Below, piece by piece: positions 12,715 to 46,740 of a stretch of 64,000 bases of DNA. Origin of the DNA: Agrobacterium cucumeris (GTDB lineage: Bacteria; Pseudomonadota; Alphaproteobacteria; Rhizobiales; Rhizobiaceae); assembly GCF_030036535.1 (NCBI RefSeq), contig NZ_CP080389.1, positions 186,001 to 250,000 on the forward strand, written 5' to 3'. A program made the position numbers and the translations under genes. Each line of letters opens with the position of its first letter. The first letter of the stretch is position 1. The notes under the pieces were generated by a model. It saw only the letters and a program-made list of their open reading frames with translations. It did not search any database and was not told the origin of the DNA.

Positions 12715-12790
12715 ATGTCCAAGCCCTCTTTCGGGCTCAACATCGTCAATCACGCCGTGATCCGAAAGGTGGGTGCAAAACACCGCTTAC

Positions 12791-19417: not shown

Positions 19418-19439
19418 GTCTTTCGGAAGGAACAGCCTC

Positions 19440-21173: not shown

Positions 21174-22006
21174 CCCAGTACGATCTTACGCGCTTTGCGA
21201 TCAATCAGATCACGACCCCCACATGGACCATGCCTCAGGCGATCGAAGGCTATTCGCGCCAAGGAATCAGAGGTATAGCGGTGTGGCGGAACTTCCTCGA
21301 CGATTATGGCGTCGAACAAACCGCCAAGCACCTGCGCGACGCACAGATGTGGGTTGCTTCGCTCTGCACGAGTGCATGGGTCAGCGAAACCGATCCGGCA
21401 GCTTACCGAGCCAAGATCGATGAGAACCGCCGGATCATCGACCAGGCGGCTGCCATCGGCGCCCCCTGCGTCGTCATGGTAATCGGCGGCTTGCCGCAGG
21501 GTGACAAAGACTTGCCCGCCCAGCGCAGGCGCATTCACGATGCTTTTGCCGAACTCGCGCCTTACGCGGCGGCCTCAGGGGTAAAACTCGGACTTGAGCC
21601 GCTGCATCCGATGTATTGTGGCGATCGCAGCGCACTCAACCTGATCACGGATGCCAATGATCTTATCGACGAGTTAGGTGACAAAGCTGCCAGCCTGGTC
21701 GCGGACGTCTATCATTGCTGGTGGGACCCCGCATTTGAGCGAGAGCTTCGCCGTGCCGGGAAAGACCGCATCCACACGTTCCACTATTGCGACTGGCTAG
21801 TCCCGACGCGGAACCTCCGTGATCGTGGCATGGTGGGCGATGGGGTGATTGATTTCGCTACCATTCGGGGATGGCTTGATGACATCGGTTACGACGGTCC
21901 GTTCGAGCTGGAACTTTTCTCTGAACTGGACTGGTGGGAACGGGATCCAGAAGAGACTGTGCGTATCGCCATCGAGCGTTGTGGCCCATTCGTAGGCCCG
22001 CGCTAA
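21170..22006 (+). CDS. Sugar phosphate isomerase/epimerase-like TIM-barrel protein, 278 aa
   Basis: Xylose-isomerase-like (AP endonuclease family 2) barrel. Possible metal ligands are Glu in GVKLGLEPLHPMY, Asp/His in SLVADVYHCWWDP, His in IHTFHYCDW and the final Glu in GPFELELFSELDW. It starts with GTG overlapping the hyuB stop. In this operon it may isomerise or hydrolyse a product of the ATP-dependent ring-opening step; that is inference from position only. Confidence 0.72.
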   Translation: MTQYDLTRFAINQITTPTWTMPQAIEGYSRQGIRGIAVWRNFLDDYGVEQTAKHLRDAQMWVASLCTSAWVSETDPAAYRAKIDENRRIIDQAAAIGAPCVVMVIGGLPQGDKDLPAQRRRIHDAFAELAPYAAASGVKLGLEPLHPMYCGDRSALNLITDANDLIDELGDKAASLVADVYHCWWDPAFERELRRAGKDRIHTFHYCDWLVPTRNLRDRGMVGDGVIDFATIRGWLDDIGYDGPFELELFSELDWWERDPEETVRIAIERCGPFVGPR

Positions 22007-22086
22007 TATCGCGTCTGGCCCGCGAGCTTGTGGGTCGGACGTTCCCTAACCGCCTGTTGGATCAGGCTTCGATTCAGGAGACCCTG

Positions 22087-22854
22087 ATGACAGACCAAAG
22101 CTTCATTTCGATACGAAACCTGCAAAAAAGCTATGCGCAGGGACAGATTAAAGTCCTGAATGGCTTGAACCTCGACATGCAGAAAACTGACCGCTTGCTT
22201 GTAATCGGTCCCAGCGGCGGAGGAAAAAGTACGCTTCTCCGCTGCGTCATGGGGCTCGAGGATGTCCAGGGCGGTGAGATCAAAGTCGACGGCAAAAACT
22301 ATATCGCCGGCGCGCCGAAAAAAACGACCATTAACGCCGAAATGCAAAAGCAGATCGGCATGGTTTTTCAGAGTTACACGCTCTTTCCTCACCTCACCGT
22401 GCTTGGTAACCTCACTCTTGCGCCCGTTAGGTCACGTGGCGTGAGGCGTGATGAGGCAGAAGCGCGCGCACTCGAATTGCTCAACCGGTTTGGGCTCAAG
22501 GCCAAGGCCAAGGCCTATCCGGCTGCTCTTTCCGGCGGTCAAAAACAGCGCGTCGCGATCGCAAGGGCGTTGATGCTCGACCCGAAACTGATGCTGTTCG
22601 ATGAAGTGACATCGGCACTCGATCCGGAACTCGTGAACGAAGTGATTAGCATGGTGACCGAGCTCGCGGACGGCGGCATGCCGATGATGATTGTCACGCA
22701 CGATATGTGGTTCGCAAAGAAGATCGCAACTAGAGTGGTCTTCTGCGATGGCGGTGTCGTTGCCGATGACGCTCCACCTGACGAATTCTTCCGTGCGCCG
22801 AAGACCGCCAGGGCGCGTGACTTCATCCACAACGTGCTGCATGCAGATCGCTGA
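22087..22854 (+). CDS. Polar amino-acid ABC transporter ATP-binding protein
   Basis: A GlnQ/HisP-type ATPase of 255 aa. Walker A GPSGGGKSTLLRC, Q-loop GMVFQSYTLFPHLTV, signature LSGGQKQRVAIARAL, Walker B KLMLFDEVTSALD and MMIVTHDMWFAKKIA are all present. ATG 22087 follows caggagacc; the frame is open further upstream into the preceding gene. Two permeases follow within 16 and 4 bp. The matching binding protein is probably the one at 25353, separated by an SDR gene. Confidence 0.88.
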   Translation: MTDQSFISIRNLQKSYAQGQIKVLNGLNLDMQKTDRLLVIGPSGGGKSTLLRCVMGLEDVQGGEIKVDGKNYIAGAPKKTTINAEMQKQIGMVFQSYTLFPHLTVLGNLTLAPVRSRGVRRDEAEARALELLNRFGLKAKAKAYPAALSGGQKQRVAIARALMLDPKLMLFDEVTSALDPELVNEVISMVTELADGGMPMMIVTHDMWFAKKIATRVVFCDGGVVADDAPPDEFFRAPKTARARDFIHNVLHADR

Positions 22855-22869
22855 GATGGACGAACGACC

Positions 22870-23538
22870 ATGCAAAACATCGATTTCTTTTTCGTCCTCA
22901 ATGCCTGGCCCGCGCTTCTGGAGGGATTAAAAATCACCCTCCAGCTCACGGTGTGGGCAAACATCATCGGGCTTGTTGCCGGGTTTCCTCTAGCCCTGCT
23001 CTCGAATGCCCGCATCGCACCGATACGGTGGATCGCGCGCTTCTATATCGACCTGTTTCGGTGTACGCCCGTCCTCGTTCAGGTCGTGTGGTTCTTCTTC
23101 TGTATACCGATGATCTTCGAGGTGTGGTGGTCGCCGGTATTCATGGGGGTCCTCATCCTCGGAATGAACCAGACGGCGTTCAACGGTGAAGCATTCAGGG
23201 CTGCCATCCAATCCATTCCCGCAGCGCAAAGGGATGCTGGTGTCGCACTTGGCCTCGGCCGTTGGAACTACACCAGATACATCGTGCTACCCCAGGCAAT
23301 CAGGACTGCGACGCCGGTCCTGATCACAAATGCGATTGGTATCTTTCAGCAAAGCTCGCTTGTTGCACTCGTGGGTGTTGCCGACCTGATGTATCAGGGC
23401 AAGCAGCTCTCGACCCAGACCTACCGCCCAATCGAGACGTTTACCTTCCTCGCGGCGTTTTATCTGGTTGTCGCGATCCCCTTTGGTCGTCTAGCCGCGT
23501 TCTTTGAACACCGGCTGGAGCGTATGAACAAGGTGTAA
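22870..23538 (+). CDS. Amino-acid ABC transporter permease 1
   Basis: HisM/GlnP-type membrane protein of 222 aa with about five hydrophobic segments. Signature pieces are LEGLKITLQLTVWANIIGL, FYIDLFRCTPVLVQVVWFFF and the loop AAIQSIPAAQRDAGVALGLGRWNYTRYIVLPQA (quoted in part). It pairs with the permease directly downstream to form the heterodimeric channel. Confidence 0.87.
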   Translation: MQNIDFFFVLNAWPALLEGLKITLQLTVWANIIGLVAGFPLALLSNARIAPIRWIARFYIDLFRCTPVLVQVVWFFFCIPMIFEVWWSPVFMGVLILGMNQTAFNGEAFRAAIQSIPAAQRDAGVALGLGRWNYTRYIVLPQAIRTATPVLITNAIGIFQQSSLVALVGVADLMYQGKQLSTQTYRPIETFTFLAAFYLVVAIPFGRLAAFFEHRLERMNKV

Positions 23539-23542
23539 GATC

Positions 23543-24211
23543 ATGCAAGATCTCGATTTCTCTGTTGTTCTGCAATACGGTCCGGCGTTGCTCAAAGGGC
23601 TCGTTCTGACCCTCCAGATTACGGTGCTTTGCGGACTGGCAAGCGTTGTGTTCGGCTTTCTCATCGGTGTTGGACGCAAGTCCAACGTTCGACCGGTCCG
23701 CTGGGCCTGCTCTCTCTATGTCGAGGTGCTGCGCGGTACGCCGGTCCTGATTACCTTGTTCTGGGTCTTCTTCTGTTTCCCGATCATTCTCGACGTTGAG
23801 CTCAGTCCCTTCATCTCGGCCGTGATTGCCCTGACACTCTATACATCGGCGATCACCAGCGAGTCCTTTCGGGCTGCCTTGGGATCGATCGGGCAAGATC
23901 AGCACGATGCTTGCAAAGCGCTTGGTCTGAGCCGTTTTTCGAAGATGATGTATGTGGTCGCGCCACAGACAATCGTACGCGCCATTCCCAACCTGATGTC
24001 GAACCTGGTGAGCCTGTTCAAGGAGAGTGCGCTCGTTTCGGCAGTCGGCGTGGTCGAACTTATGTACACGGCTCAAAACATATCGAACGTGACTGCGAGA
24101 CCTGTCGAGGTACTGACCACCGCGGCTCTCGTCTACTTTGTTATCGGCTGGGTGCTCACGCGACTGGTCAATGCCGCGGAAACGCGCCTGCTCGTCAAAA
24201 TGGCAGTGTGA
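23543..24211 (+). CDS. Amino-acid ABC transporter permease 2
   Basis: Also 222 aa and similar in layout to its upstream neighbour, so the two probably arose by duplication: LLKGLVLTLQITVLCGLAS, EVLRGTPVLITLFWVFF and SIGQDQHDACKALGLSRFSK. It begins 4 bp after the preceding stop. An 85-bp gap with a small tcacgc/gcgtga hairpin (24252-24266) separates it from the SDR gene. Confidence 0.87.
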   Translation: MQDLDFSVVLQYGPALLKGLVLTLQITVLCGLASVVFGFLIGVGRKSNVRPVRWACSLYVEVLRGTPVLITLFWVFFCFPIILDVELSPFISAVIALTLYTSAITSESFRAALGSIGQDQHDACKALGLSRFSKMMYVVAPQTIVRAIPNLMSNLVSLFKESALVSAVGVVELMYTAQNISNVTARPVEVLTTAALVYFVIGWVLTRLVNAAETRLLVKMAV

Positions 24212-25207: not shown

Positions 25208-25352
25208 TGCAATCGGTGCCAAGATCGCTTTTAGCCAGGCCGAGCGCCGATTGGACACGATAGAAAGGAAACCAACCCAGCAGAACCCACCGAACAGATG
25301 CATGCGAATAAAAGCAATCAACGGAACAGCAGCAACAATTGGGAGTGTTAAA

Positions 25353-26180
25353 ATGAAACTTACGAAGCTCATCACCGGGTTGATCCTCGGCGCAACAGTT
25401 CTCGCTGGAGCAGGTCAGGCCAATGCCCAGTCTGCCGAAGGTTACTGGCAGGAAATCCAGAAGCGCGGAACGCTCCGTTGCGGCGCGGCAGTCGCGCCCC
25501 CGCACGTTATTCGCGATCCTCAAAGCGGCGAATACAGCGGTACATTCGTCGACCTCTGCAAGAAGTTTGCTCAGGACGCCCTTGGCGTAAAAGCTGAAAT
25601 CGTCGACACGACCTGGGACAACATCGTTGCCGGCTTGCAGGCCAATCGCTGGGACCTGTCCATGGCTTTGAACCAGAATCCCAAGCGGGCTATGGCGATC
25701 GCCTTCAGTCAGCCGGTCGTTCAGTACGAAGTTTCCGGCGTTTACGACAAGGCAAATCCGAAGTTTTCCACGGCACCGAAGTCTATCGCAGATCTCGACG
25801 TCGCCGGCGTGACGATCATCATCATGTCGGGCACGGCAATCGACGGAACACTTACGCGCCAGATCAAGAATGCAACGATCCTGCGCCTGCCCGATATCGA
25901 CGCCACTCGCCTGGCGCTCTCTTCACGGAGAGGCGACATCCTCGTCGATGACAGCGACAGCAACACGCTGTTTTCAGCGACGGGCAAGGATCGCTGGGTG
26001 ACGCTTAACCCCGAGCCTGCTATCTCGAAGCAGGGCATCGCGTTTGGCCTGCGTCGTGATGCTTCGTATTCGGATATCCAGTCGCTGAACTTCTTCATCC
26101 AGGAGCAGACCGCGATCGGCGAAGTCGACCGCATCGCGAGCGGATACATCGACAAGCTCGCGGGCGAAATCAAGAAATAG
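25353..26180 (+). CDS. Amino-acid ABC transporter substrate-binding protein
   Basis: Periplasmic binding protein of 275 aa. A Sec signal peptide (KLTKLITGLILGATVLAGAG, cleavage near QANAQ) precedes a HisJ/GlnH-like domain with RGTLRCGAAVAPPHVI and TWDNIVAGLQANRWDLSMAL. ATG 25353 was chosen because of the signal peptide and gggagtg upstream; the open frame extends left without similarity. It probably serves the ATPase/permeases at 22087-24211. The ligand is unknown. Confidence 0.85.
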   Translation: MKLTKLITGLILGATVLAGAGQANAQSAEGYWQEIQKRGTLRCGAAVAPPHVIRDPQSGEYSGTFVDLCKKFAQDALGVKAEIVDTTWDNIVAGLQANRWDLSMALNQNPKRAMAIAFSQPVVQYEVSGVYDKANPKFSTAPKSIADLDVAGVTIIIMSGTAIDGTLTRQIKNATILRLPDIDATRLALSSRRGDILVDDSDSNTLFSATGKDRWVTLNPEPAISKQGIAFGLRRDASYSDIQSLNFFIQEQTAIGEVDRIASGYIDKLAGEIKK

Positions 26181-26287: not shown

Positions 26288-28027
26288 ATGGAGAACATGA
26301 TGACCGTCGACAAAAAACCTCTCCGTAGCGAGGCATGGTTCAAGCGCATTGACAATACCGGGTATGAGCACCGCACCCACCTCAAGGCGCGTGGTGCGCT
26401 ACCAGATATGTTCGAGGGCAAACCCGTAATCGGCATTGCCAACTCGGCATCCGATCTGGTCCCCTGCAACGCCCATCTCACGGAACTGGCGGAATGGGTT
26501 GCTCGCGGTGTGCTCGAAGCTGGCGGCTTCCCGCTTGTGTTTTCCACTATGTCGATCGGCGACTCCATCATGCGTCCGAGCGGAATGCTTTTCCGCAATA
26601 TGATGAGTATGGAGCTCGAGGCGACACTTCGCGCAAACCCGCTCGACGGCGTGGTTTTGCTAACAGGATGCGACAATACGGCGCCCGCCTACATGATGGG
26701 GGCAGCCAGCGTCGATCTCCCGACCATCGTCGTGCACGGTGGGACGATGCTGAGCGGTCGCGTTGGGATGCGGCAGGTAGGTTCGGGTTCCGACATTTTT
26801 CGTATGCACGGCGAATACAAGGCAGGGCGTATGACGAAGGACGCTTTCCTTGCGTCGGAATACGGAATGTCGCGCAGTAACGGCGCCTGTAACACGATGG
26901 GGACGGCAACGACGATGGGCTGTATCGCAGAAGCCCTCGGCCTCAGTCTCACGGGATCTGCTGCCATTCCCGCGGTTGATGGGCGTCGGAAGGGCTCCGC
27001 GCAGTTGTCTGGTCGGCGAATCGTCGAGATGGTCAGAGAAGATCTGGCGTTCTCTAAGATCGTCGATCGATCGGCGCTTGAGAATGCAATCCGAGTCAAC
27101 GCTGCCCTCGGCGGGAGCACGAATGCAATCATTCATTTGCTGGCTTTGGCGGGGCGCCTGGAGATTGAACTGACCCTTGCCGACTTCGAAGAAAACAGCC
27201 GGTCAATCCCGCTTCTTGCCAACATCCTTCCGAACGGCAAGTACCTCGTCGAGGAATTCTTCTCCGCGGGTGGATTGCCGGCCGTCATGGCATCGCTTGG
27301 GGAGAGGCTCAACCTTGATGCGCGTACCGCAGGCGGAACGACGCTGCGGGAGGAACTCGCTGGCGTCGAAAGCCTTGACCACGACGTCATCGCGCCGTTC
27401 GACAAACCGATCAAGCCGCAGAACGCGCTGCGCATCATCAGGGGCAACATTGCACCAAACGGTGCTGTGATGAAACCATCAGCCGCAAGTCCGCACCTGA
27501 TGAAACATACGGGCCGTGCCGTCGTGTTCGAATCCGTGGAAGATCTCGACAAGCGCATCGATGATCCGTCTCTGAATATCGACGAGACCTGCGTACTCGT
27601 TCTGAAGGGGATTGGCCCCAGAGGTTATCCGGGCATGCCGGAACTTGGAAATATCCGTTTGCCCAAGCATATTCTCGAAAAGGGCGTCACCGATATGGTC
27701 AGGATTTCGGACGGCCGCATGAGTGGCACGGCTTATGGTACGGTCGTGCTTCACGTTGCGCCCGAATCCTCGATCGGTGGTCCGCTGGCTCTGATCCGTG
27801 ATGGTGACCTGATTTCGCTGGACGTCGAGGCGGGCACATTGTCGGTCAATCTCACCGATGACGAACTTGAACTGCGGCGGTCGCAAGCCTCCTTTGCGCC
27901 CATCAGCCATAAGCGCGGTTACGAGCGCCTCTTTGTTGAGCATGTCTTGCAGGCTGATAAGGGGCTCGATTTTGATTTCCTGGTGGGGCGAAGCGGGAAC
28001 GAAGCTCCGACGAGACGACCGTTCTAA
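26288..28027 (+). CDS. IlvD/Edd-family dehydratase (sugar-acid or dihydroxy-acid type), 579 aa
   Basis: Iron-sulfur dehydratase removing water from a 2,3-dihydroxy acid to give a 2-oxo acid. Visible family motifs: IGIANSASDLVPCNAHL, LLTGCDNTAPAYMMGA with a cluster cysteine, SRSNGACNTMGTATTM with a second cysteine, ALGGSTNAIIHLLA and VRISDGRMSGTAYGTVVLHVAPES. It differs from true IlvD by sugar-acid-type spacing, so I favour an aldonate or hydroxy-acid substrate. Start options are ATG 26288 (used) or 26297/26300. It follows the binding protein by 107 bp and probably shares the promoter carrying operator site 1. Confidence 0.83.
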   Translation: MENMMTVDKKPLRSEAWFKRIDNTGYEHRTHLKARGALPDMFEGKPVIGIANSASDLVPCNAHLTELAEWVARGVLEAGGFPLVFSTMSIGDSIMRPSGMLFRNMMSMELEATLRANPLDGVVLLTGCDNTAPAYMMGAASVDLPTIVVHGGTMLSGRVGMRQVGSGSDIFRMHGEYKAGRMTKDAFLASEYGMSRSNGACNTMGTATTMGCIAEALGLSLTGSAAIPAVDGRRKGSAQLSGRRIVEMVREDLAFSKIVDRSALENAIRVNAALGGSTNAIIHLLALAGRLEIELTLADFEENSRSIPLLANILPNGKYLVEEFFSAGGLPAVMASLGERLNLDARTAGGTTLREELAGVESLDHDVIAPFDKPIKPQNALRIIRGNIAPNGAVMKPSAASPHLMKHTGRAVVFESVEDLDKRIDDPSLNIDETCVLVLKGIGPRGYPGMPELGNIRLPKHILEKGVTDMVRISDGRMSGTAYGTVVLHVAPESSIGGPLALIRDGDLISLDVEAGTLSVNLTDDELELRRSQASFAPISHKRGYERLFVEHVLQADKGLDFDFLVGRSGNEAPTRRPF

Positions 28028-28084: not shown

Positions 28085-28759
28085 TCAGTCGCCGTCGGGA
28101 CGTGATAACGAACCGGTGAGCTTTTGACCTTCTGTAATGTTGTGTTGCTCAGCCAACGTCCCAGCAAGAACCGAATCCCGTTCACGGATAGCATTCCAGA
28201 TCGGTTCATGCTGGACGATAATCTCCAAGGGATCTTCTATCAGAAGATTGCTTGATCGGATGAACACGCGGATTTGCTGCTCTATCAGCTTATATTGTTG
28301 TTTTAGGCGGCTATGCCCGGACTCGTCGATGATCGATTTGTGAAAACCGAAATCGGCCTCAGCAATTGTTTCAGAGCTCTCCGTCACTGTATTTTTCAGC
28401 CGGTCAAATGCGGCCTCAATACGCGACATCGCCTCATTGTCGGCATTGGTCGCAGCAAACTGTGCCGCCAGACGTTCGATAGCACCTCGTAGCGTGTAGA
28501 GCTCCCAAACATCCTGATGGGTGAGTTCAACGACCGTCCAACCCGTGTAGGGAACGAGACTGACGAGCCCTTCTTTTCCAAGCTGATGCAGCGCCGTGCG
28601 GACAGTGGCACGGGAAAGACCCATGCCCTCCGAAAGCTGGACCTCTGTCAAGCGCGATCCCGGTCGGATCGATCCGTCCACGATTTGGGATCTCAATACG
28701 CCAAGCGCTCGCACGTCCGCTGGCATTTTTTCGATTTTTGGTAGCTTCATTTGCGTCAT
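28085..28759 (-). CDS. GntR-family regulator with FCD domain, 224 aa
   Basis: The winged HTH occupies residues about 12-75 (LRSQIVDGSIRPGSRLTEVQL, MGLSRATVRTALHQLGKEGL), followed by the all-helical FCD ligand domain (ELYTLRGAIERLAA, DFGFHKSIIDESGHSRL, HEPIWNAIRERD) with histidines that usually hold a metal. FCD proteins bind small organic acids. It is divergent from the kinase/enolase operon, with the 26-bp palindrome between them, and convergent to the dehydratase. It is the likely regulator of both operons and of itself. Confidence 0.87.
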   Translation of the reverse strand: MTQMKLPKIEKMPADVRALGVLRSQIVDGSIRPGSRLTEVQLSEGMGLSRATVRTALHQLGKEGLVSLVPYTGWTVVELTHQDVWELYTLRGAIERLAAQFAATNADNEAMSRIEAAFDRLKNTVTESSETIAEADFGFHKSIIDESGHSRLKQQYKLIEQQIRVFIRSSNLLIEDPLEIIVQHEPIWNAIRERDSVLAGTLAEQHNITEGQKLTGSLSRPDGD

Positions 28760-28956: not shown

Positions 28957-30375
28957 ATGTTCAGGGCGAACAAAATTCGAAACGCTGACGAGATTGCCGC
29001 TCACGGGGATGCGGCGTCACGCCAGATTGTCCTTGAAATCGCGGACCGGACACTTGAGCGGCTCGATAGCTACAAGCGCATCCGCAGCATCATGCGACTT
29101 GAGGGCGATATCCTGCACATCGGCACGAAGTCGTGGGACCTGTCGAAGAAGCGCAACATCTACCTCTTTGGTGCGGGCAAGGCCTGCAACCACATGGCCA
29201 TGGCGGTGGATCACGTCCTTGGCGACCGCCTCACGCGCGGAATAGCCATCGTGAAGATCCACGAGGAAACCGATCGTTTCAACAAGACCGAGGTTTACGT
29301 TGGCGGCCATCCTCTGCCGAACGAGGCAGGCTACCAGGCATCCAGGAAGATGATCGAGATCATCGACCAGGCGGGTCCGGACGACCTTTTTATCGGAGTC
29401 ATCAGCGGTGGCAGTTCCGCTTTGATGTCCTGCCCAATCGACGGTATTTCGCTGCAGGACGAGATCGACACGACCGACGTACTGCTGAAATCCGGCGCCG
29501 GAATCTACGAAATCAACGCGGTGCGCCGGCACATATCCGCGCTGAACGGGGGCATGCTCGCCAAGCGCATTCAGGACGTGGGCGCGGAGCTGATCGGCTT
29601 CGGCATCAGCGATGCCGTCGGCTCACCGGCAACCGGTGACATCGCCGTCCCCTACGCTGCCTATAAAAGCACGCCCATTGGGCCCGATGCGACGACACTG
29701 GATGATGCGCGCGCTACCATCGTCAATTATGACGTGGCCGACCGCCTGCCAAAGAGCGTCGTCGACTACCTGATGAATGCCGGGCCGGACAAGGAAACGC
29801 CGAAGGCCTTTCCGAACAACACCTATTTCTTGCTCAACACCCTGCCGGATTCCTGCATCTCCGCCAAGGAAATCTGTGAGGAGATGGGTATTCCTGCCAT
29901 TATCGTCTCTTCTTTCCTGGAAGGTGAAAGCAAGGACGCAGGCACGTTCTTCGCTTCGATGGCGCGTGAGATCCAGACTTACGGCAACCCGGTCAAGGCG
30001 CCGTGCGTGCTGCTCAGTTCTGGCGAGGTCACGACTCAGATTCTCGACAACAGCGTCATCCGCGGGCACGGCGGACCGGGCCAGGAGATGACGATCAGCT
30101 TTGCGATCACCGCCGCGAAAACAAAGGGCGCGTGCCTTCTGTCGATTGACAGCGAAGGAACCGACGGGACGGCCAAGGTGGCCGGCGGCATCACCGATTC
30201 CGCCAGTCTGGCGGCTGCTGCGGGAAAGGGCATCAATCTCCATCAGACGCTGCGCGAGCACAGTTGTTTCGAGGCGCTCGACGCTATCGGCTCCGCTGTC
30301 TTCACCGGCAACACCGGCACCAACCTGTGCGACCTCAACATTCTTTACGTACCAGCCCTGAAGGAGGGCCAGTAA
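28957..30375 (+). CDS. Glycerate 2-kinase family (MOFRL) protein, 472 aa
   Basis: The N-terminal DUF4147-type domain (residues about 25-260, with IYLFGAGKACNHMAMAV, VGGHPLPNEAGYQASRKM and VISGGSSALMSCP) precedes the MOFRL domain (PCVLLSSGEVTTQI, GHGGPGQEMTISFAI, IDSEGTDGTAKVAGGITDS). Known members phosphorylate D-glycerate to 2-phosphoglycerate. aagtcggaggagc precedes ATG 28957. It is directly followed by an enolase paralogue, which suggests that its product is a 2-phospho-hydroxy acid on which the second enzyme acts. Confidence 0.87.
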   Translation: MFRANKIRNADEIAAHGDAASRQIVLEIADRTLERLDSYKRIRSIMRLEGDILHIGTKSWDLSKKRNIYLFGAGKACNHMAMAVDHVLGDRLTRGIAIVKIHEETDRFNKTEVYVGGHPLPNEAGYQASRKMIEIIDQAGPDDLFIGVISGGSSALMSCPIDGISLQDEIDTTDVLLKSGAGIYEINAVRRHISALNGGMLAKRIQDVGAELIGFGISDAVGSPATGDIAVPYAAYKSTPIGPDATTLDDARATIVNYDVADRLPKSVVDYLMNAGPDKETPKAFPNNTYFLLNTLPDSCISAKEICEEMGIPAIIVSSFLEGESKDAGTFFASMAREIQTYGNPVKAPCVLLSSGEVTTQILDNSVIRGHGGPGQEMTISFAITAAKTKGACLLSIDSEGTDGTAKVAGGITDSASLAAAAGKGINLHQTLREHSCFEALDAIGSAVFTGNTGTNLCDLNILYVPALKEGQ

Positions 30376-30376
30376 C

Positions 30377-31651
30377 ATGGAAGACAGGATTGCCTCAATC
30401 TTCGCCCAGCAGATCATCGACTGCAAATGCCGCCCAGCGGTAGAGGTGGAAATCCGCACCGAAAGCGGTGCTGTCGGCCGCGGCGCGGCTCCGACCGGGA
30501 GCTCGGTCGGCATGCACGAAGCCTTCGTGCTGCGCGACGGCGACAAGTCGACCTATGGCGGCCTTAGTGTTCACAAGGCGGTCCAGAAGGTCGAGACGAT
30601 CATCGCACCAGCGCTCATCGGGATGGACGTCTTCGATCAGCGCGCCATTGACGAGAAGATGATCGCGATCGACGGTACGCCAGATAAGGGGAGCCTTGGC
30701 GGCAACACGATATATTCGGTATCGATCGCGGCTTTCCGTGCTGCGGCCGATGCGCTGCGCATTCCGCTCTATGACCACATTGCGGGCGGTACGATCAAGA
30801 CTGTGCCTGTTCCCTGCTTCAACGTCATCAATGGCGGAAAATACGACGGTTTCATCCAGTCCTTCAACGAGTTCCTGATCGTTCCCTACGGTACGGACAG
30901 TATCGACGTTTCGATCGAGATGGCGGTTACCGTTTTCCAGGAGCTCTCGCACGTGCTCACCAGACACCTCGGCCACAAACCGCAGGTCGCTAGCTCTTAC
31001 GGTTACGCAGCGCCCTCGGACGATCCGGAAGTGCTTCTCGATCTCATGCAGCAGGCTATCGACGCCTGCGGCTACACCGGGCGCATCGCTTTCGCTCTCG
31101 ATTGCGCGTCGAGCGAGTTTTTCGACGCTGAGAGCCGTACGTATCTTCTGAAAGGGCAACGCGTGACCAGTGACGAGCTGATCGCTTACGCCAAGCGCCT
31201 GACGGAAAAATACGACTTCGTTTTTATCGAGGACCTCCTCGATGAGAACGACTGGGATGGCTATGTTAAAGCAAACCGCGAGATTGACCGGACGATCATC
31301 CTTGGTGACGACCTAACGGTAACCAAGCTCCAATACCTCAAGCGCGCTTTCGAAACCAAAGCTGTCGGCGGCTTTATCCTGAAGCCCAATCAGGTCGGCA
31401 CGATCACAGAAGCGATGGACGCTCACCGCTACGCGAGCGAACATGGCATAATTTCCGTCCCCTCAGGGCGCTCCGGCGGTGTCGTTGACGATGTCGTGAT
31501 GGATTTCTCGGTCGGACTTCAGGTTCCGTTTCAGAAGAACGGCGCGCCTCGTTCCGGCGAGCGCATCGAAAAGCTGAACTTCCTGATGCGTGCCAATGCC
31601 CGCAGCGCCGGATGCCGCCTTTACGACATCAAGCCTCTCCTAAAATTCTGA
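30377..31651 (+). CDS. Enolase paralogue with altered active site, 424 aa
   Basis: The overall sequence aligns along its length with enolase: loop PTGSSVGMHEA with LRDGDKS, metal ligands Asp242 (LDCASSEF), Glu285 (IEDLLDE) and Asp311 (LGDDL), catalytic-base Lys336 (FILKPNQVGT), and Arg365/Ser366. Three residues essential in true enolases are changed: the His of GGEHAD is Tyr156, the Glu of VGDEGGYAP is Ser207, and the His of SHRSGE is Gly364. The comparison with E. coli enolase is from memory. It starts one base after the kinase stop. I infer a beta-elimination on a 2-phospho acid other than 2-phosphoglycerate, or a different enolase-superfamily reaction. Confidence 0.8.
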   Translation: MEDRIASIFAQQIIDCKCRPAVEVEIRTESGAVGRGAAPTGSSVGMHEAFVLRDGDKSTYGGLSVHKAVQKVETIIAPALIGMDVFDQRAIDEKMIAIDGTPDKGSLGGNTIYSVSIAAFRAAADALRIPLYDHIAGGTIKTVPVPCFNVINGGKYDGFIQSFNEFLIVPYGTDSIDVSIEMAVTVFQELSHVLTRHLGHKPQVASSYGYAAPSDDPEVLLDLMQQAIDACGYTGRIAFALDCASSEFFDAESRTYLLKGQRVTSDELIAYAKRLTEKYDFVFIEDLLDENDWDGYVKANREIDRTIILGDDLTVTKLQYLKRAFETKAVGGFILKPNQVGTITEAMDAHRYASEHGIISVPSGRSGGVVDDVVMDFSVGLQVPFQKNGAPRSGERIEKLNFLMRANARSAGCRLYDIKPLLKF

Positions 31652-31699: not shown

Positions 31700-32821
31700 A
31701 TGACCACGAAAATCGACTTTCTCTACCTTTCCGAACCCGACATGATCGCCGCCGGTGTCAACGACGCAAAGCGTTGCGTGGAAATCTGCGAGGAGACTTT
31801 CAGCCTGCTGGGCGAGGGCGACTACCTCATGGGCGGTGCCAACCACAACAGCCATGGCCTCAACATCGTCTTTCCGAAGGAAACGAAGTTCCCGAACATG
31901 CCCGTCGCCGGCCCGGACCGGCGTTTCGCCGCCATGCCCGGTTATCTCGGCGGCCGCTTCGACGTCTGCGGCAACAAGTGGTACGGCTCGAACCATGCCA
32001 ATACCCAGAAGGGCCTTCCGCGCTCGATCCTAACGATGATGCTGAACGACAAGGAAACCGGCGCGCCGATGGCGCTGATGTCAGCGAACCTGCTCAGCGC
32101 CGCGCGCACAGGCGCCGTACCGGGCGTCGCGGCAAAGCACCTCGCCAACAAGGATGCTAAGATCGTCTCCATTGTCGGTTGCGGTCCGATCAACAAGGCC
32201 TGCTTCACCGCCATCATGACCCAGCTTCCCGCCGTCGAGAAAGTCGTCTGCTTCGACGTGTTCCTGGACAAGGCAAATGAACTCGCGCGCTGGGTCGCGG
32301 AGACCTACAAGGTCAAGGCCGTCGGCGTCGACGAGGCCGAGGCAGGCTTCCGCAACATCGACGTCATCACCGTGGCGGCTTCGCGCCTCAAGCCGCTCTA
32401 CTTCAAGGACGAGTGGATCAAGGAAGGCGCGACCATCCTCGTTTCCGGTCCGTTCAACACGGACGAGTCCTTCCTCACTGGGGCGACGATCGTCTACGAT
32501 CACACGCCGCTTCAGGAAGCCTATGTCGAGGACGCTATCGCCTCGGGCAACAAGGATGCCTACTACGGCGGCGTGATTGGCGGTCCGTTCTTCCGTCTCA
32601 TCGACGCTGGCAAGTTGCCGGCTCTCAAAGACTCGACCGGCCTTGGCGACGTGGTCAACGGCAAGAAGCCGGGCCGCGAAAGCGCCAAGGATCGGGTCAT
32701 CTTCATCGCTTGCGGCATGGCTGTCTTCGACATCAGCTGGGGCTTCGAAATGTATGAGAACGCCAAGAAGAACGGCATCGGCCAGTCCCTCAATCTCTGG
32801 GACAAGCCCGCCCTCGCTTGA
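31700..32821 (+). CDS. Ornithine cyclodeaminase/mu-crystallin family protein, 373 aa
   Basis: An NAD(P)-binding Rossmann segment, VSIVGCGPINKACFTAI, follows an N-terminal substrate domain (LMGGANHNSHGLNIVFP, GNKWYGSNHANTQKGLPRS). Family members include ornithine cyclodeaminase, imine reductases, opine-type dehydrogenases and SbnB, which makes or oxidises N-substituted amino acids. gggagctccatt precedes ATG 31700. Within this operon it could reduce or deaminate an imino or amino acid, with glutamate dehydrogenase downstream recycling the nitrogen. Confidence 0.8.
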   Translation: MTTKIDFLYLSEPDMIAAGVNDAKRCVEICEETFSLLGEGDYLMGGANHNSHGLNIVFPKETKFPNMPVAGPDRRFAAMPGYLGGRFDVCGNKWYGSNHANTQKGLPRSILTMMLNDKETGAPMALMSANLLSAARTGAVPGVAAKHLANKDAKIVSIVGCGPINKACFTAIMTQLPAVEKVVCFDVFLDKANELARWVAETYKVKAVGVDEAEAGFRNIDVITVAASRLKPLYFKDEWIKEGATILVSGPFNTDESFLTGATIVYDHTPLQEAYVEDAIASGNKDAYYGGVIGGPFFRLIDAGKLPALKDSTGLGDVVNGKKPGRESAKDRVIFIACGMAVFDISWGFEMYENAKKNGIGQSLNLWDKPALA

Positions 32822-32958: not shown

Positions 32959-33651
32959 ATGCTTTCGTTGGCCGACCCGGTTCAAGCGACCAGCACGGAT
33001 CATTTCTTCGGTCCATCCATATCGGAGATACATATTGAGGAAGGTTCCCGGGGCAAGCGGCCCAAGGCTCTCAAACATGTCATCAGGGCCATGGAGAACA
33101 GTGTTCTCGGTCAAAATCCCGACGTACCCGGCACTTTGCCAGCCTGCAAGATGCTCAATCTTCTTCAGGCCAGTGGCGTTCGCAGCGTGTCCGGACCACG
33201 CTTGCAGCCCGAGTTTCGGCTCCGCGGCGAATTTAACACCGCGTTGAACAGTTTGGCTAACGAAGGCCCGAACTCTCAGTTCCTGGCGGCAGCGCTGGAT
33301 GAACTTGAAGATGGCCTCGTCTGGTATTCGGCAAAGAGCGGTCCGTTTGCCAGCCTCAATTTCGAGCGAAACCACGCTCATGCCGTTTTGGGGGCGCCCA
33401 AGACAGATAGTAGCGACAAGGTGTTGCTGGGCATCACAATCATGGCGCCATACACCCGCTTTCCGGACTACGTCCTGCGCTTGCCGCGGGTGATGTTTCC
33501 TCTTTCGCCTGGAGAGTACAAATCGATCAGCGGTGAGTGGAAGAGCCACCAGATCGGTTCCCCGATTGTCTGCGCCGCAGGTCGTGAGTTTGCGATGCGG
33601 TGCGCGTCGCAGCCGCTTCTTTCCCTATGGTGCCAGAGGCTGGCGACCTGA
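32959..33651 (+). CDS. DMSP-lyase-type (DddQ-like) cupin without its metal ligands, 230 aa
   Basis: The C-terminal half matches the DddQ family plan: GITIMAPYTRFPDY, VMFPLSPGEYKS, SGEWKS, then AAGREFAMRC and PLLSLWCQRL. From memory, family members have MAPHTRYPDHxHPPEEVY and GIVHAMR; here the histidines of the first box are Tyr171 and Leu173, the glutamate is Arg177, and the last histidine is Phe211. Metal binding therefore looks lost. gatgaggaac precedes the ATG. It may be a binding or regulatory protein, or an enzyme of changed mechanism. The reading frame is undamaged, which argues against simple decay. Confidence 0.6.
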   Translation: MLSLADPVQATSTDHFFGPSISEIHIEEGSRGKRPKALKHVIRAMENSVLGQNPDVPGTLPACKMLNLLQASGVRSVSGPRLQPEFRLRGEFNTALNSLANEGPNSQFLAAALDELEDGLVWYSAKSGPFASLNFERNHAHAVLGAPKTDSSDKVLLGITIMAPYTRFPDYVLRLPRVMFPLSPGEYKSISGEWKSHQIGSPIVCAAGREFAMRCASQPLLSLWCQRLAT

Positions 33652-33731
33652 TCGAACCCGCGTGCAATTCAACAGAGCGGAAGGGCTTGTCCCTGGCCAG
33701 CTCCGCGACCCCAACCTCGAGGACCGTACAA

Positions 33732-35168
33732 TTGGATACTGCAACCATCCCTCAGCCCGATCAAATCGACGCGCCATTTCTTCAGAGCGTTGAGGCCTAT
33801 ATCGATAATGCTATGACGCATCTGTCCCTTACCGAGGGGCTTGCCGAGCGGATCAAGGCTTGCAACTCGACCTACACAGTCCGTTTCGGCGTCCGGTTGC
33901 GCGGCAGAATGTTTAGCTTTACCGGCTGGCGCTCGGTGCACAGTGAGCATGTCGAGCCGGCAAAAGGCGGAATTCGATACTCGATCCACTCCGATCAGGA
34001 AGAAGTCGAGGCGCTCGCTGCGCTCATGAGCCTGAAGTGCGCGGTCGTCGACGTACCGTTCGGAGGGTCGAAAGGTGCGCTCAAAATTGATCCCACCGAA
34101 TGGGATGCCCATGAGCTGGAGCGTATCACGCGCCGATTTACCCAGGAACTCGCTAAGCGCAATCTCATATGCCCGGGCCGAAACGTCCCCGCGCCAGACA
34201 TGGGCACAAGTGAACAGACCATGGCCTGGATGGCGGATGAATACAAGCGCACTGGTCCATCCGACATCATGAATGCCAACGCCTGCGTTACCGGCAAGCC
34301 ACTGGCCAGTGGCGGGATCGCAGGAAGAACCGAAGCGACGGGCAGGGGGGTTCAATACGCTATCCAAAGTTACCTGCGCGACGCCCAGGAAAACGGCATA
34401 GACGGGCGCCGGGATTTGCGGACCATGTCCGTTGTCGTCCAGGGATTTGGCAACGTCGGGTACCACGCAGCCAAATTCCTGAGTGAAGACGATGGTGCCA
34501 GGATCATCGCGGTCGTTGAGCGCGATGGATACGTCACCAATGCCGACGGGCTGGCCATAGAAGAGCTCAAACGCTTCCACGGTGAACATGGGACTATCCT
34601 TGGATTTCCGGGGGCGCAGAGCTATACCGACCGGGCCGCAGGTCTCGAACTTCCGTGCGACATCCTCATTCCAGCGGCTATGGAAAACGCCATCACGCTT
34701 GAAAACGTCGGCCGCATTCGAGCAAAGTTCATCGCTGAAGCAGCAAATGGACCCATCAGCTTCGAGGCTGAGCGACAGTTGTCCGATCGCGGCGTGGTCG
34801 TTCTGCCCGACCTCTTCGTGAATGCCGGCGGTGTAGCGGTGAGCTACTTCGAATGGGTCAAAAACATTACACACATCCCTTTCGGGCTGATGGAGCGCCG
34901 GCGCCGTGAGCGCAGGAATCTCCATATCACACACGCTCTCGAAGCGATGACTGAGCGGTCATTTCCGAGCGACATCCGCGACGAATTCCTGGAGGGCGGC
35001 GCGGAAATCGATCTGGTCAGGTCGGGGCTGGAGGACGTGATGCGCAACGCCTACCAGAAGATTGCCGAGGTGAAGCGCTCATCTGCGGAAATCAAGACTT
35101 TCCGAACGGCAGCTTATGTCATCGCCATCAGGAAGATCGCCGACGCTTATCAGGCTATCGGTATCTGA
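33732..35168 (+). CDS. Glutamate (Glu/Leu/Phe/Val) dehydrogenase, 478 aa
   Basis: Oxidative deamination of glutamate to 2-oxoglutarate and ammonia, or the reverse. Motifs: PAKGGIRYS with the substrate lysine, PFGGSKGAL with the second lysine, PAPDMGTSEQTMAWM with the catalytic aspartate, GRTEATGRGV, and the Rossmann segment VVVQGFGNVGYHAAKF. The frame is open from 33600, but homology begins near residue 1 of TTG 33732 (LDTATIPQPDQ), preceded by gagg. Length and layout fit alphaproteobacterial GDH. It may dispose of amino nitrogen from the compound degraded by this operon. Confidence 0.87.
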   Translation: MDTATIPQPDQIDAPFLQSVEAYIDNAMTHLSLTEGLAERIKACNSTYTVRFGVRLRGRMFSFTGWRSVHSEHVEPAKGGIRYSIHSDQEEVEALAALMSLKCAVVDVPFGGSKGALKIDPTEWDAHELERITRRFTQELAKRNLICPGRNVPAPDMGTSEQTMAWMADEYKRTGPSDIMNANACVTGKPLASGGIAGRTEATGRGVQYAIQSYLRDAQENGIDGRRDLRTMSVVVQGFGNVGYHAAKFLSEDDGARIIAVVERDGYVTNADGLAIEELKRFHGEHGTILGFPGAQSYTDRAAGLELPCDILIPAAMENAITLENVGRIRAKFIAEAANGPISFEAERQLSDRGVVVLPDLFVNAGGVAVSYFEWVKNITHIPFGLMERRRRERRNLHITHALEAMTERSFPSDIRDEFLEGGAEIDLVRSGLEDVMRNAYQKIAEVKRSSAEIKTFRTAAYVIAIRKIADAYQAIGI

Positions 35169-35578: not shown

Positions 35579-38500
35579 ATGCCAATCACAAAAATACTTG
35601 TTGCCAACCGATCCGAAATTGCGATCCGCGTTTTCCGGGCAGCCAACGAGCTCGGGATAAAAACCGTTGCGATTTGGGCGGAAGAGGACAAGCTGTCTTT
35701 GCACCGCTTCAAAGCGGACGAGTCCTATCAGGTCGGCAGGGGGCCGCATCTCGCCAAGGATATGGGACCGATCGAGAGCTATCTTTCGATCGAGGAGGTT
35801 ATCCGCGTTGCGAAGCTCTCCGGAGCGGACGCGATTCATCCCGGTTACGGTCTTCTGTCTGAAAGCCCCGAATTCGTGGAGGCCTGCAACAAGGCGGGCA
35901 TCACCTTCATCGGACCGACGGCGGATACGATGCGCCAGCTCGGCAACAAGGTTGCAGCGCGCAATCTCGCGATTTCGGTTGGCGTTCCTGTTGTTCCCGC
36001 CACCGACCCACTACCGGGCGACATGGCGGAAGTGGAGCGTATGGCGGAGGAGATCGGTTATCCCGTCATGCTCAAGGCCTCCTGGGGCGGTGGTGGCCGT
36101 GGCATGCGCGCCATCCGTAAAAAGGAAGACCTAGCCCGCGAGGTGACGGAAGCCAAGCGCGAGGCCAAGGCCGCCTTCGGCAAGGACGAAGTCTATCTCG
36201 AAAAGCTGGTCGAGCGTGCGCGTCACGTCGAAAGCCAGATTCTCGGCGACACGCACGGCAATGTCGTGCATCTGTTCGAGCGTGATTGTTCGATCCAGCG
36301 GCGTAATCAAAAGGTCGTCGAGCGTGCGCCCGCGCCCTATCTGAGCGAAGCACAGCGTCAGGAGCTCGCCTCCTACTCCCTGAAGATTGCGGGTGCCACG
36401 AATTATATCGGTGCGGGCACGGTCGAATATCTGATGGATGCCGATACCGGCAAATTCTACTTCATCGAGGTCAATCCGCGCATTCAGGTGGAACATACCG
36501 TTACGGAAGTCGTCACCGGTATCGATATCGTCAAGGCGCAGATTCACATTCTGGAAGGCGCGGCCATCGGCACGCAGGAATCCGGGGTGCCGAGGCAGGA
36601 GGATATCCGCCTGAATGGCCACGCCCTCCAGTGCCGCATTACGACGGAAGACCCGGAACACAACTTCATTCCGGATTATGGCCGTATCACCGCTTATCGC
36701 TCCGCTTCAGGCTTCGGTATCCGTCTGGATGGCGGCACGTCCTATACTGGCGCTGTCATCACCCGCTACTACGATCCGTTGCTTGTGAAGGTGACGGCCT
36801 GGGCGCCGCGGCCTGACGAGGCGATCAACCGTATGGATCGCGCTTTGCGCGAATTCCGTATCCGCGGGGTGGCGACCAACCTCACATTCCTAGAGGCCAT
36901 CATCGGCCATGACAGTTTCCGCAACAATACCTATACGACGCGCTTCATCGATTCGACGCCCGAGCTTTTCGCCCAGGTCAAACGGCAGGACCGCGCTACC
37001 AAGCTTTTGACCTATCTCGCCTATGTGACCGTGAACGGCCACCCGGAAACCAAGGGACGCGCAAGGCCCTCGGACAAGGCGGCAAAGCCCATCGTGCCCT
37101 ATATCGATGCGCCGACGCCCGACGGCACCAAGCAGTTGCTGGACAAGCTCGGCCCGAAGGGTTTCGCAGACTGGATGCGCAACGAAAAGCGGGTACTCGT
37201 CACGGACACGACGATGCGCGACGGACATCAGTCGCTGCTTGCGACCCGCGTCCGCACCCATGATATCGTCCGCGTCGCCAGCGCCTATCCCAAGGCGCTG
37301 CCACAGCTTCTGTCGCTGGAGTGCTGGGGCGGTGCGACATTCGACGTTTCCATGCGCTTCCTGACAGAAGACCCGTGGGAGCGTCTGGCGCTGATCCGCG
37401 AAGGTGCTCCCAACCTGCTGCTGCAGATGCTTCTGCGCGGGGCAAACGGCGTCGGGTACAAGAACTACCCGGATAACGTCGTGAAGTATTTTGTCCGTCA
37501 GGCCGCAAAGGGCGGCATTGATCTTTTCCGTGTCTTCGATTGCCTGAACTGGGTGGAGAATATGCGGGTCTCGATGGATGCCATCTCGGAGGAAAACAAG
37601 CTCTGTGAAGCGGCCATCTGCTACACCGGAGACATCCTCAATTCGGCGCGTCCGAAATACGACCTGAAATATTACACCAATCTCGCCCAGGAACTGGAAC
37701 GCGCGGGCGCGCATATTATTGCCGTCAAGGATATGGCGGGCCTGCTGAAACCGGCTGCCGCCAAGGTTCTGTTCAAGGCGCTGCGGGAAGAAACGGGTCT
37801 GCCGATCCATTTCCACACCCATGATACGTCAGGAATTGCGGCAGCGACGGTTCTTGCCGCCGTGGATGCGGGCGTCGACGCGGTCGATGCCGCGATGGAC
37901 GCCTTCTCTGGCAATACGTCGCAGCCGTGCCTTGGTTCGATCGTGGAAGCGCTTGCCGGGTCGGAACGCGATACGGGCCTTGATACCGAATGGATTCGCC
38001 GCATTTCCTTCTATTGGGAGGCCGTGCGCAACCAGTATGCGGCTTTCGAAAGCGATCTCAAGGGGCCGGCGTCCGAAGTCTATCTGCACGAAATGCCGGG
38101 TGGTCAGTTCACCAACCTCAAGGAGCAGGCGCGTTCGCTGGGTCTCGAAAGCCGTTGGCACGAAGTGGCGCAGGCTTATGCCGATGCCAACAGGATGTTC
38201 GGCGATATCGTCAAGGTGACGCCGTCTTCGAAAGTCGTCGGTGACATGGCGCTGATGATCGTCAGCCAGGACCTGACAGTGGCCGACGTACGGAATCCCG
38301 AGCGCGAGGTCTCTTTCCCGGAGTCCGTGGTTTCCATGCTGAAGGGCGATCTCGGACAATCGCCCGGCGGTTGGCCGGAAGCCCTGCAGAAAAAAGCGTT
38401 GAAGGGCGAAGCGCCCTATACCGTTCGTCCGGGTTCACTATTGGCGGATGCCGATCTCGATGCCGAACGGAAGACCATCGAGACCAAGCTGGAGCGCAAG

Positions 38501-39067
38501 GTCGATGATTTCGAGTTCGCGTCCTATCTGATGTATCCGAAGGTATTCACGGATTTCGCGCTCACCGCCGAAACCTATGGTCCGGTCTCGGTGCTTCCCA
38601 CCCATGCCTATTTCTACGGAATGGAGGATGGCGAGGAACTGTTTGCCGATATCGAGCGCGGCAAGACGCTGGTCATCGTCAATCAGGCTTCGTCCGGCGT
38701 TGACGACAAGGGCATGGTGACGGTGTTTTTCGAAATCAATGGTCAGCCGCGCCGTATCAAGGTGCCGGATCGGACGCATGGTGCTTCCGGCTCTGCCGTG
38801 CGCCGCAAGGCCGAACCTGGCAACGCGTCGCATGTCGGGGCACCTATGCCGGGTGTCATCAGCCGCGTCTTCGTCAATCAAGGCCAGGAGGTCAAGGCTG
38901 GCGATGTGTTGCTCTCCATCGAGGCGATGAAGATGGAAACGGCGCTTCACGCCGAGCGGGATGGCAAGATCGCGGAAGTTCTCGTGCGCCCGGGCGACCA
39001 GATCGATGCGAAGGATCTACTGATCGCTTACGACCATGGGGCTGTTGGGGCTTCCGGTGATCAGTGA
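35579..39067 (+). CDS. pyc: Pyruvate carboxylase
   Basis: Biotin-dependent enzyme making oxaloacetate from pyruvate, bicarbonate and ATP. Its 1162 aa match the single-chain type. Order: biotin carboxylase (residues 1 to about 460, KASWGGGGRGMRAI and EVNPRIQVEHTVTEVV), carboxyltransferase (about 540-810, TDTTMRDGHQSLLATRVRT, FDCLNWVENM and HFHTHDTSG), a tetramerisation region, and a biotinyl domain at the C-terminus with biotin lysine in EAMKMET. aaggagacgtc precedes ATG 35579. Its place in a catabolic operon suggests an anaplerotic role when the substrate is broken down to pyruvate or PEP. Confidence 0.95.
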   Translation: MPITKILVANRSEIAIRVFRAANELGIKTVAIWAEEDKLSLHRFKADESYQVGRGPHLAKDMGPIESYLSIEEVIRVAKLSGADAIHPGYGLLSESPEFVEACNKAGITFIGPTADTMRQLGNKVAARNLAISVGVPVVPATDPLPGDMAEVERMAEEIGYPVMLKASWGGGGRGMRAIRKKEDLAREVTEAKREAKAAFGKDEVYLEKLVERARHVESQILGDTHGNVVHLFERDCSIQRRNQKVVERAPAPYLSEAQRQELASYSLKIAGATNYIGAGTVEYLMDADTGKFYFIEVNPRIQVEHTVTEVVTGIDIVKAQIHILEGAAIGTQESGVPRQEDIRLNGHALQCRITTEDPEHNFIPDYGRITAYRSASGFGIRLDGGTSYTGAVITRYYDPLLVKVTAWAPRPDEAINRMDRALREFRIRGVATNLTFLEAIIGHDSFRNNTYTTRFIDSTPELFAQVKRQDRATKLLTYLAYVTVNGHPETKGRARPSDKAAKPIVPYIDAPTPDGTKQLLDKLGPKGFADWMRNEKRVLVTDTTMRDGHQSLLATRVRTHDIVRVASAYPKALPQLLSLECWGGATFDVSMRFLTEDPWERLALIREGAPNLLLQMLLRGANGVGYKNYPDNVVKYFVRQAAKGGIDLFRVFDCLNWVENMRVSMDAISEENKLCEAAICYTGDILNSARPKYDLKYYTNLAQELERAGAHIIAVKDMAGLLKPAAAKVLFKALREETGLPIHFHTHDTSGIAAATVLAAVDAGVDAVDAAMDAFSGNTSQPCLGSIVEALAGSERDTGLDTEWIRRISFYWEAVRNQYAAFESDLKGPASEVYLHEMPGGQFTNLKEQARSLGLESRWHEVAQAYADANRMFGDIVKVTPSSKVVGDMALMIVSQDLTVADVRNPEREVSFPESVVSMLKGDLGQSPGGWPEALQKKALKGEAPYTVRPGSLLADADLDAERKTIETKLERKVDDFEFASYLMYPKVFTDFALTAETYGPVSVLPTHAYFYGMEDGEELFADIERGKTLVIVNQASSGVDDKGMVTVFFEINGQPRRIKVPDRTHGASGSAVRRKAEPGNASHVGAPMPGVISRVFVNQGQEVKAGDVLLSIEAMKMETALHAERDGKIAEVLVRPGDQIDAKDLLIAYDHGAVGASGDQ

Positions 39068-39134
39068 ACTGTTAGTGCAGCAATTGCCCAACAAGGCGGG
39101 TAGCGGGGAAGTCGATAGATCGGGAAGGCCGAAA

Positions 39135-42204: not shown

Positions 42205-42234
42205 TATTGCAGGTCGATAGCGCGAGGGGTGTCC

Positions 42235-45867: not shown

Positions 45868-45909
45868 TTGCGGTTCCAATCGGCTTCAGCTGTCGCAACG
45901 GGAAAAGTC

Positions 45910-45928
45910 CCGGCGCATCGAGCGCCGG
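45910..45928. terminator. Hairpin between convergent operons
   Basis: ccggcgc (45910-45916) and gcgccgg (45922-45928) form a 7-bp GC stem with loop atcga, between the dehydratase stop and the hydrolase stop. It lacks a T-run. Confidence 0.45.
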
Positions 45929-45958
45929 AACCGAAGGATTCTTGATTAGCCGGCCTGC

Positions 45959-46720: not shown

Positions 46721-46740
46721 TTTTGATTTTTTCTCCCGTT

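Follow-up and report, generated by a model that had tools for sequence, protein, structure and literature searches.

Within a stretch of 64,000 nucleotides of Agrobacterium cucumeris (contig NZ_CP080389.1, positions 186,001 to 250,000; hereafter the window), a kinase with the class-II glycerate 2-kinase fold is followed by a paralogue of enolase and, as the third gene of a conserved unit, by a protein of the ornithine cyclodeaminase/mu-crystallin family (Table 1). Judged from alignments, the leaving-group side of the paralogue's active site has been rebuilt and its proton-abstraction side kept. It is proposed with moderate confidence that the paralogue performs enolase-type proton abstraction on a 2-phospho-2-hydroxy acid other than 2-phosphoglycerate (2PG), and that it would expel a group other than water to give phosphoenolpyruvate (PEP). 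More tentatively, the three genes may form the end of a catabolic route in which a non-water leaving group is lost from a phosphorylated 3-substituted 2-hydroxy acid, giving PEP, a reading that is favoured here while falling somewhat short of probable. A full-text literature search, with subscription journals and preprints outside its scope, found no published description of the kinase–paralogue pair.

Compared with E. coli Eno, the window protein retains Asp246, Glu290, Asp317 and Lys342 as Asp242, Glu285, Asp311 and Lys336, and carries Tyr156, Ser207 and Gly364 in place of His159, Glu209 and His370. A first-pass annotation of this DNA had named these residues, and the alignment places every one of them correctly. 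In a first alignment of the window protein with those of 41 related loci, His159 was replaced by Tyr (one Cys), Glu209 by Ser (one Ala) and His370 by Gly in 42 of 42 paralogues, and the canonical rows read His, Glu, His in 14 of 14. A wider alignment of 91 rows comprised 21 canonical enolases and 70 paralogues including the window's, of which 53 rows came from loci (two from L121; none from L120 or L076–L078) and 17 from 240 listed proteins, P0122 being a duplicate of L034. Here, in E. coli numbering, Glu168, Asp246, Glu290, Asp317, Lys342, Arg371 and Lys393 are kept in all 70 paralogues, and the Ser42 position is Thr in three. In contrast, His159, Asp208, Glu209, His370 and Glu374 are absent from all 70 and kept in all 21 canonical rows, a pattern beyond chance. 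Position 159 is Tyr in 63 paralogues, Asn in six and Cys in one; position 209 is Ser in 67, Tyr in two and Ala in one; position 370 is Gly in 68 and Gln in two; and position 374 is always Gly. Position 208, Asp in 21/21 canonical enolases, is acidic in none of the 70 paralogues and is Arg or Lys in 13. The changes at Asp208 and Glu374 go beyond the first-pass annotation, as does the third gene.

If the lost residues were supplied from nearby positions, these differences would mean little, as that annotation had recognised. No such stand-in was apparent against the canonical enolase of its own genome (row L001), to which all three motifs of the window protein align gap-free. Ser207 is usually followed by Tyr, but this residue varies (Phe in three of the 70 rows, His in one, Cys in one), so that no conserved new acid replaces Glu209. 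An unliganded AlphaFold2 model of the paralogue (mean predicted local distance difference test score 94.3) matches 50 solved enolase entries among those listed, over 395–421 residues at 1.4–2.1 Å. All 50 listed rows of this fold search are enolases (2pa6 is so named), and no finer functional hint was seen among them.

To relate these changes to function, yeast and Mycobacterium tuberculosis residue numbers were converted to E. coli numbers by correspondences that we assume; in particular, M. tuberculosis Glu204 and yeast Glu211 are both taken to be E. coli Glu209. In the excerpted text of two enolase studies, the residues lost here serve the leaving hydroxyl, and the kept ones bind the carboxylate and phosphate and abstract the C2 proton (PMC4450660, PMC10619443). 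Yeast Glu211 is described there as the general acid assisting hydroxide departure (PMC4450660), and M. tuberculosis enolases mutated to alanine at Asp241, Glu163, Glu204 or Lys335 as non-functional in a PEP-to-2PG assay (PMC10619443). The first-pass annotation had supposed that the paralogue eliminates water. With the counterpart of yeast Glu211 and of the residue changed in the non-functional mutant E204A lost in 70/70 paralogues, water is doubtful as the eliminated group, and a leaving group independent of such an acid fits better. The rest of that interpretation is supported, namely a functional pair acting on a substrate that is unlikely to be 2PG, along a route for which no published description was found.

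In a variant with water as the leaving group, the starting compound would be a larger 2-phospho-2,3-dihydroxy acid (for instance one derived from erythronate, threonate or tartrate) and the product a 2-oxo-3-deoxy acid as its enol phosphate, with Gly364 and Ser207 accommodating the longer chain. Two pocket residues do shrink, and some pairs have sugar-acid enzymes in their vicinity (IlvD-type dehydratases in the window, L008 and L033; galactonate-dehydratase-like MR/MLE proteins in L121 and L122). However, the hydroxide-expelling acid is gone throughout with no conserved substitute, and neighbouring pyruvate kinase and pyruvate carboxylase genes hint at PEP itself. Erythronate or threonate may be the substrate, but these PEP- and pyruvate-using neighbours point to a C3 product. 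The variant is considered rather unlikely.

That kinase and paralogue act as a pair, as the first-pass annotation proposed, finds support in genome-neighbourhood comparison. The kinase lies next to the paralogue in 45/46 loci of a first set and within 2 kb in 11/11 loci of a second (L096 is common to both). Over both sets it lies at most 2 kb away in 55 of 56 loci and is directly adjacent or fused in 53, the loci being partly non-independent (L010 and L077 are from the same species, L115 and L116 from one genome, and L096 and L122 from one genome). One gene sits between the two in L118 and L120; in L030, which lacks the kinase, the contig begins 174 bases ahead of the paralogue. The kinase match is only partial in L115 and L005, as is that of the third gene in L115, and L072, a partial match, was excluded ahead of counting. 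As a control, 30 loci (~19 kb each) holding a 36–42% identical, canonical-type enolase were read, with active-site residues checked in 12 of them, and none contained such a kinase. In the window, a single base separates the kinase stop from the paralogue ATG, as had been noted before, and the distance is 0–2 bases in 20/45 loci; the remaining distances include stop-finding artefacts (many at −112) and were not used. Fusions also occur: the paralogue carries a kinase C-terminus in P0173 and a MOFRL domain (Pfam) in P0183 and P0226, and the two proteins form one 895-aa open reading frame (ORF) in L116:180–2867.

The window kinase shares with class-II glycerate 2-kinase (MOFRL; solved relatives 1x3l and 2b8n) the DUF4147 and MOFRL domains and the GKA, EINxVRxHIS and GTDG motifs, but it has SGGSSAL for SGGGSAL, SSGE for GGE, GNTGTN for GPTGTN and SEGTDG for TDGTDG. 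These changes are present in nearly all paired kinases alignable there, and the kinase motifs are altered in step with the paralogue. The window kinase also falls below the cut-offs of two NCBIfam glycerate-2-kinase models, both narrow (170.2 bits against 550 and 140.4 against 670). Collectively, a functional pair is supported. Such a pair could still be a diverged isoenzyme set, with glycerate kinase and enolase serving an ordinary serine/glycerate route to PEP. The excerpted text of PMC2063504 has characterised kinases of the family yielding 2PG, and the curated NCBI eno model, named phosphopyruvate hydratase, accepts the paralogue at 373.3 bits (cut-off 300). The changed kinase motifs and low kinase scores speak against this explanation, as do the non-functional M. 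tuberculosis mutants above and the normal enolase that all eight hosts checked have kept, leaving it very unlikely. Besides the paralogue, the window genome encodes a single enolase, which has the canonical residues and lies on a different contig; in each of seven other genomes examined, too, one canonical enolase accompanies one paralogue.

Relatives of the paralogue listed in the database are named enolase, enolase C-terminal domain-like protein or phosphopyruvate hydratase; the nearest copies, at 97% and 96% identity, are labelled Agrobacterium. With phosphopyruvate hydratase (TIGR01060, PF03952 + PF00113; EC 4.2.1.11) the paralogue shares the whole fold, metal ligands, base Lys, phosphate Arg, carboxylate Lys and Ser42 loop. 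It differs in lacking the general acid Glu, both His, Asp208 and Glu374, in being paired or fused with a kinase and additional to the host's enolase, and in its separate place in the tree. In a maximum-likelihood tree, 31 paralogue rows split from 14 canonical enolases at 100/100; at least seven of the tree rows, those named P, are database proteins of unknown context, save the fusion P0173. The MR/MLE subgroup belongs to the enolase superfamily and follows the same proton-abstraction logic. The paralogue gives a weak MR_MLE_C match, but its alignment with enolase proper covers the full length, and it retains the phosphate site of enolase.

The paralogue group spans at least three phyla, and the gene set is rare and patchy in distribution. 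In searches run at strict E-values with the seed genome inside each draw, it was found at E 1e-140 in 1/297 genomes of the window's family, 2/391 in the class of a Cuneatibacter genome and 1/199 in the phylum Planctomycetota, and at E 1e-110 in 9/348 genomes of the Cuneatibacter genome's family. The contig carrying the window measures 301,850 bases in a genome of 5.7 Mb, eight records were found in a plasmid collection, and the gene set can be described as plasmid-like.

Several divergent loci deserve separate mention. Genome G186 holds a second kinase–enolase pair (L122:9679–12384), whose enolase is 47% identical to P0233 and has Tyr at 209 and Cys at 210; this pair adjoins a galactonate-dehydratase-like MR/MLE protein and a DcuC carrier. 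In genome G924 (L121:8487–12492), two tandem enolase paralogues, with Ser versus Tyr at the acid position, lie behind one kinase and possibly reflect two substrates or a heteromer. L121a, L121b and L122 share no common clade in the tree; the L122 and canonical branches are long, so that the joining of L122 to the canonical enolases may be false. Finally, the enolase match at L119:9367–10566 contains two in-frame TAA codons and may be a broken gene; it was counted as found.

Neighbouring genes were mapped by tblastn, over ~20 kb on each side in the window and ~10 kb or less at most other loci. The third gene, 48 bases after the paralogue in the window, is the most frequent neighbour, found in 43 of 46 loci including the window and in seven of ten further loci (from the Cuneatibacter genome's family and genome G186), or 50/56 in total. 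Six pair-bearing loci lack it in the stretch read (L003, L034, L096, L119, L121, L122). The nearest solved structure to its product is 4m54, labelled there as a putative ornithine cyclodeaminase, which we take to be SbnB. The product tops the curated cut-off of PRK06199 (530 bits against 362), a model whose name, 'tyramine oxidase subunit B', is a mere label. Next in frequency among the 46 loci are the TIM barrel (19), AroE-like (19) and DadA-like (18) proteins, two types of proline-racemase-like protein (16 and 13), HyuB (14), HyuA (12), RidA (9) and a glutamate-dehydrogenase-like protein (GDH; 8).

The prevalence of the third gene lends itself to another explanation, in which nothing is eliminated from C3 in the favoured manner: the paralogue would epimerise C2, or would expel the beta-phosphate of a phosphorylated hydroxy-amino acid to leave an imine that the third-gene protein reduces. 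The third gene's family acts on amino-acid ketimines according to the excerpted text of PMC4113996, and RidA-like relatives occur near 9/46 pairs. Arg371 and Lys393, the phosphate and carboxylate holders of enolase, are nevertheless kept in 70/70 paralogues, the third gene is missing from the stretch read at six pair-bearing loci, and the pyruvate kinase neighbours would be left unexplained. This explanation is accordingly judged improbable.

The most telling layouts are the simplest: in L113 and the Planctomycetota loci L035, L036 and L070, kinase, paralogue and third gene are accompanied by a LarA-type racemase and by a transporter assigned by eye to the TRAP type; L113 and L070 have GDH as well. 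Proteins of the 2-hydroxyacid-dehydrogenase family occur in L034, L035 and L118, all under the models' curated cut-offs. L119 has a nickel-pincer isomerase and HyuAB, and L117 an NCS1 allantoin-like permease. HyuAB accompanies the pair in Pseudomonadota and recurs at 37–39% identity in L096 and L119, so that it probably belongs to the route in some of its versions. The trio of HyuA, HyuB and xylose-isomerase-like TIM barrel (17345–22006 in the window) is grouped together in many loci. The first proline-racemase-like type seems to have Ser instead of the first Cys (one sequence, by eye), and the second Cys motif is present in 17/17; some 4-hydroxyproline epimerases likewise have Ser for the first Cys, according to the same excerpt (PMC4113996). 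Galactonate-dehydratase-like MR/MLE proteins adjoin the two divergent pairs. Some assignments were made by eye without a family scan: the AKR protein in L096, GltS in L119, TRAP subunits, LivK-type binding proteins and, for Tct in L121, the permease parts.

Table 1. Features of the window discussed in the text (E. coli Eno numbering in brackets for codons)
Feature	Position	Strand	Basis or remark
Kinase, MOFRL/DUF4147 (class-II glycerate 2-kinase fold), own subfamily	28957..30375	+	472 aa; Pfam DUF4147 + MOFRL, motif comparison
Enolase paralogue	30377..31651	+	424 aa; Pfam Enolase_N + Enolase_C
Codon Tyr156 (His159)	30842..30844	+	alignment with E. coli Eno
Codon Ser207 (Glu209, general acid)	30995..30997	+	alignment with E. 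coli Eno
Codon Lys336 (Lys342, base; kept)	31382..31384	+	alignment with E. coli Eno
Codon Gly364 (His370)	31466..31468	+	alignment with E. coli Eno
Ornithine cyclodeaminase/mu-crystallin family protein, third gene of conserved unit	31700..32821	+	
GntR/FCD regulator, divergent from kinase	28085..28759	-	
Glu/Leu/Phe/Val dehydrogenase	33600..35168	+	relatives near unit in 8/46 loci including window
Pyruvate carboxylase, second copy	35579..39067	+	96% identity to contig C1 copy (compared from start two codons inside)
Shikimate-dehydrogenase-like protein	39036..39923	+	relatives in 19/46 loci including window
HyuA-type ATP-dependent hydantoinase/oxoprolinase subunit	17345..19417	+	possible member of wider pathway
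HyuB subunit	19440..21173	+	relative in L042
Xylose-isomerase-like TIM barrel	21170..22006	+	relatives in 19/46 loci including window
Amino-acid-type ABC transporter, ATPase and two permeases	21934..24211	+	one permease scanned; rest by tblastn grouping and eye
Solute-binding protein matching amino-acid-type ABC transporter	25350..26180	+	
IlvD/Edd-family dehydratase	26297..28027	+	relatives near unit also in L008, L033

The outlet of the favoured route can be sought among the same neighbours. In L005 (Cupriavidus) and L032 (Pseudomonas), the third gene is followed by one for pyruvate kinase. The two proteins are 44% identical and their genomes hold four and three pyruvate-kinase matches, respectively, so that two separate recruitments to one place are probable. 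In the window, a second pyruvate carboxylase lies 3.9 kb downstream of the pair, inside a catabolic island; at 96% identity to the contig C1 copy, it is a recent duplicate. Both kinds of neighbour fit a route ending in PEP or pyruvate, few as they are.

Under the favoured reading, the kinase would phosphorylate the 2-hydroxyl of an acid X-CH2-CH(OH)-COOH, where X is not OH. The paralogue would then hold the carboxylate, the phosphate and two metals in the manner of enolase, Lys336 would take the C2 proton, and X would leave C3 unaided by the glutamate acid on which enolase depends to expel hydroxide. The resulting PEP may enter central metabolism through pyruvate kinase and pyruvate carboxylase. 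The ornithine-cyclodeaminase-family and glutamate-dehydrogenase-like enzymes would convert the substrate between its amino, keto and hydroxy forms, a task shared in some lineages by 2-hydroxy-acid racemases or dehydrogenases. Because Asp208, Glu209 and Glu374 are lost and position 208 is Arg or Lys in 13/70 rows, we infer that a cationic amine is a less likely X than an anionic group or a bulky, neutral one.

Several substrates were considered. Phosphosulfolactate synthase ComA run in reverse, converting 2-phospho-3-sulfolactate to PEP and sulfite, is an example of the proposed chemistry, likened by reaction and not by sequence. Sulfolactate or cysteate would suit the charge and the neighbours of the 2-hydroxyacid- and type-2-malate-dehydrogenase families, but the HyuAB and proline-racemase neighbours misfit, and these acids are kept as an example only. 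Isoserine, or another substrate with an amine as leaving group, is less likely, three acidic residues being gone. Hydroxyproline was set aside as a direct substrate: many proteobacterial loci have 4-hydroxyproline-type enzymes close by, but none was found beside Bacillota or Planctomycetota pairs (tblastn, 1e-15), for which reason they are read as a neighbouring or upstream module.

Various observations weigh against the favoured reading. Pyruvate kinase neighbours occur in just 2/46 loci, and a full-length pyruvate carboxylase match was found in no other locus, most being covered for ~10 kb on each side. Glu168 is kept and could in principle act as an acid via water, and the structure model lacks a ligand. 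The HyuAB, proline-racemase-like, DadA-like and AroE-like neighbours are unexplained by a simple X-lactate route. Further, the transporter types near the pairs vary so widely (amino acid, sugar, TRAP, Tct, DcuC, GltS and NCS1, with TRAP and GltS assigned by eye) that gene context fixes no substrate. Finally, no sulfite-handling gene was recognised near the pairs, where no model search for one was made, which weakens sulfonate as X.

Elsewhere in the window, a second acid-sugar-like cluster (42229–52554) includes an IlvD-type dehydratase (47% tblastn match). Also placed in it, from inspection by eye alone, are an HpcH-type aldolase, one MR/MLE-like and one SDR protein, and an ABC transporter of the amino-acid type. 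Probable IS66-type transposase genes at 10308–12783 and recombinase-like ORFs at 31–1625, both by eye, suggest a mobile or recently assembled island.

To our knowledge, enolase proper is commonly regarded as a one-reaction family. The paralogues may instead, on a conjecture slightly bolder than the favoured route, be a widespread, hitherto unrecognised second branch of true enolases which, with their own kinases, free non-hydroxide groups from 3-substituted 2-phospholactates and recover the carbon as PEP. This would amount to a general kinase-plus-lyase cleavage of C3–X bonds that keeps the phosphate-bond energy, with X being, for example, a sulfonate, a carboxylate-bearing or a heterocyclic group. 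The paralogues would provide a natural experiment on the enolase residues that determine the leaving group. Recognising them would correct annotations as phosphopyruvate hydratase that might mislead metabolic models, and would point to an undescribed entry into PEP of some soil, plant-associated and gut acid.

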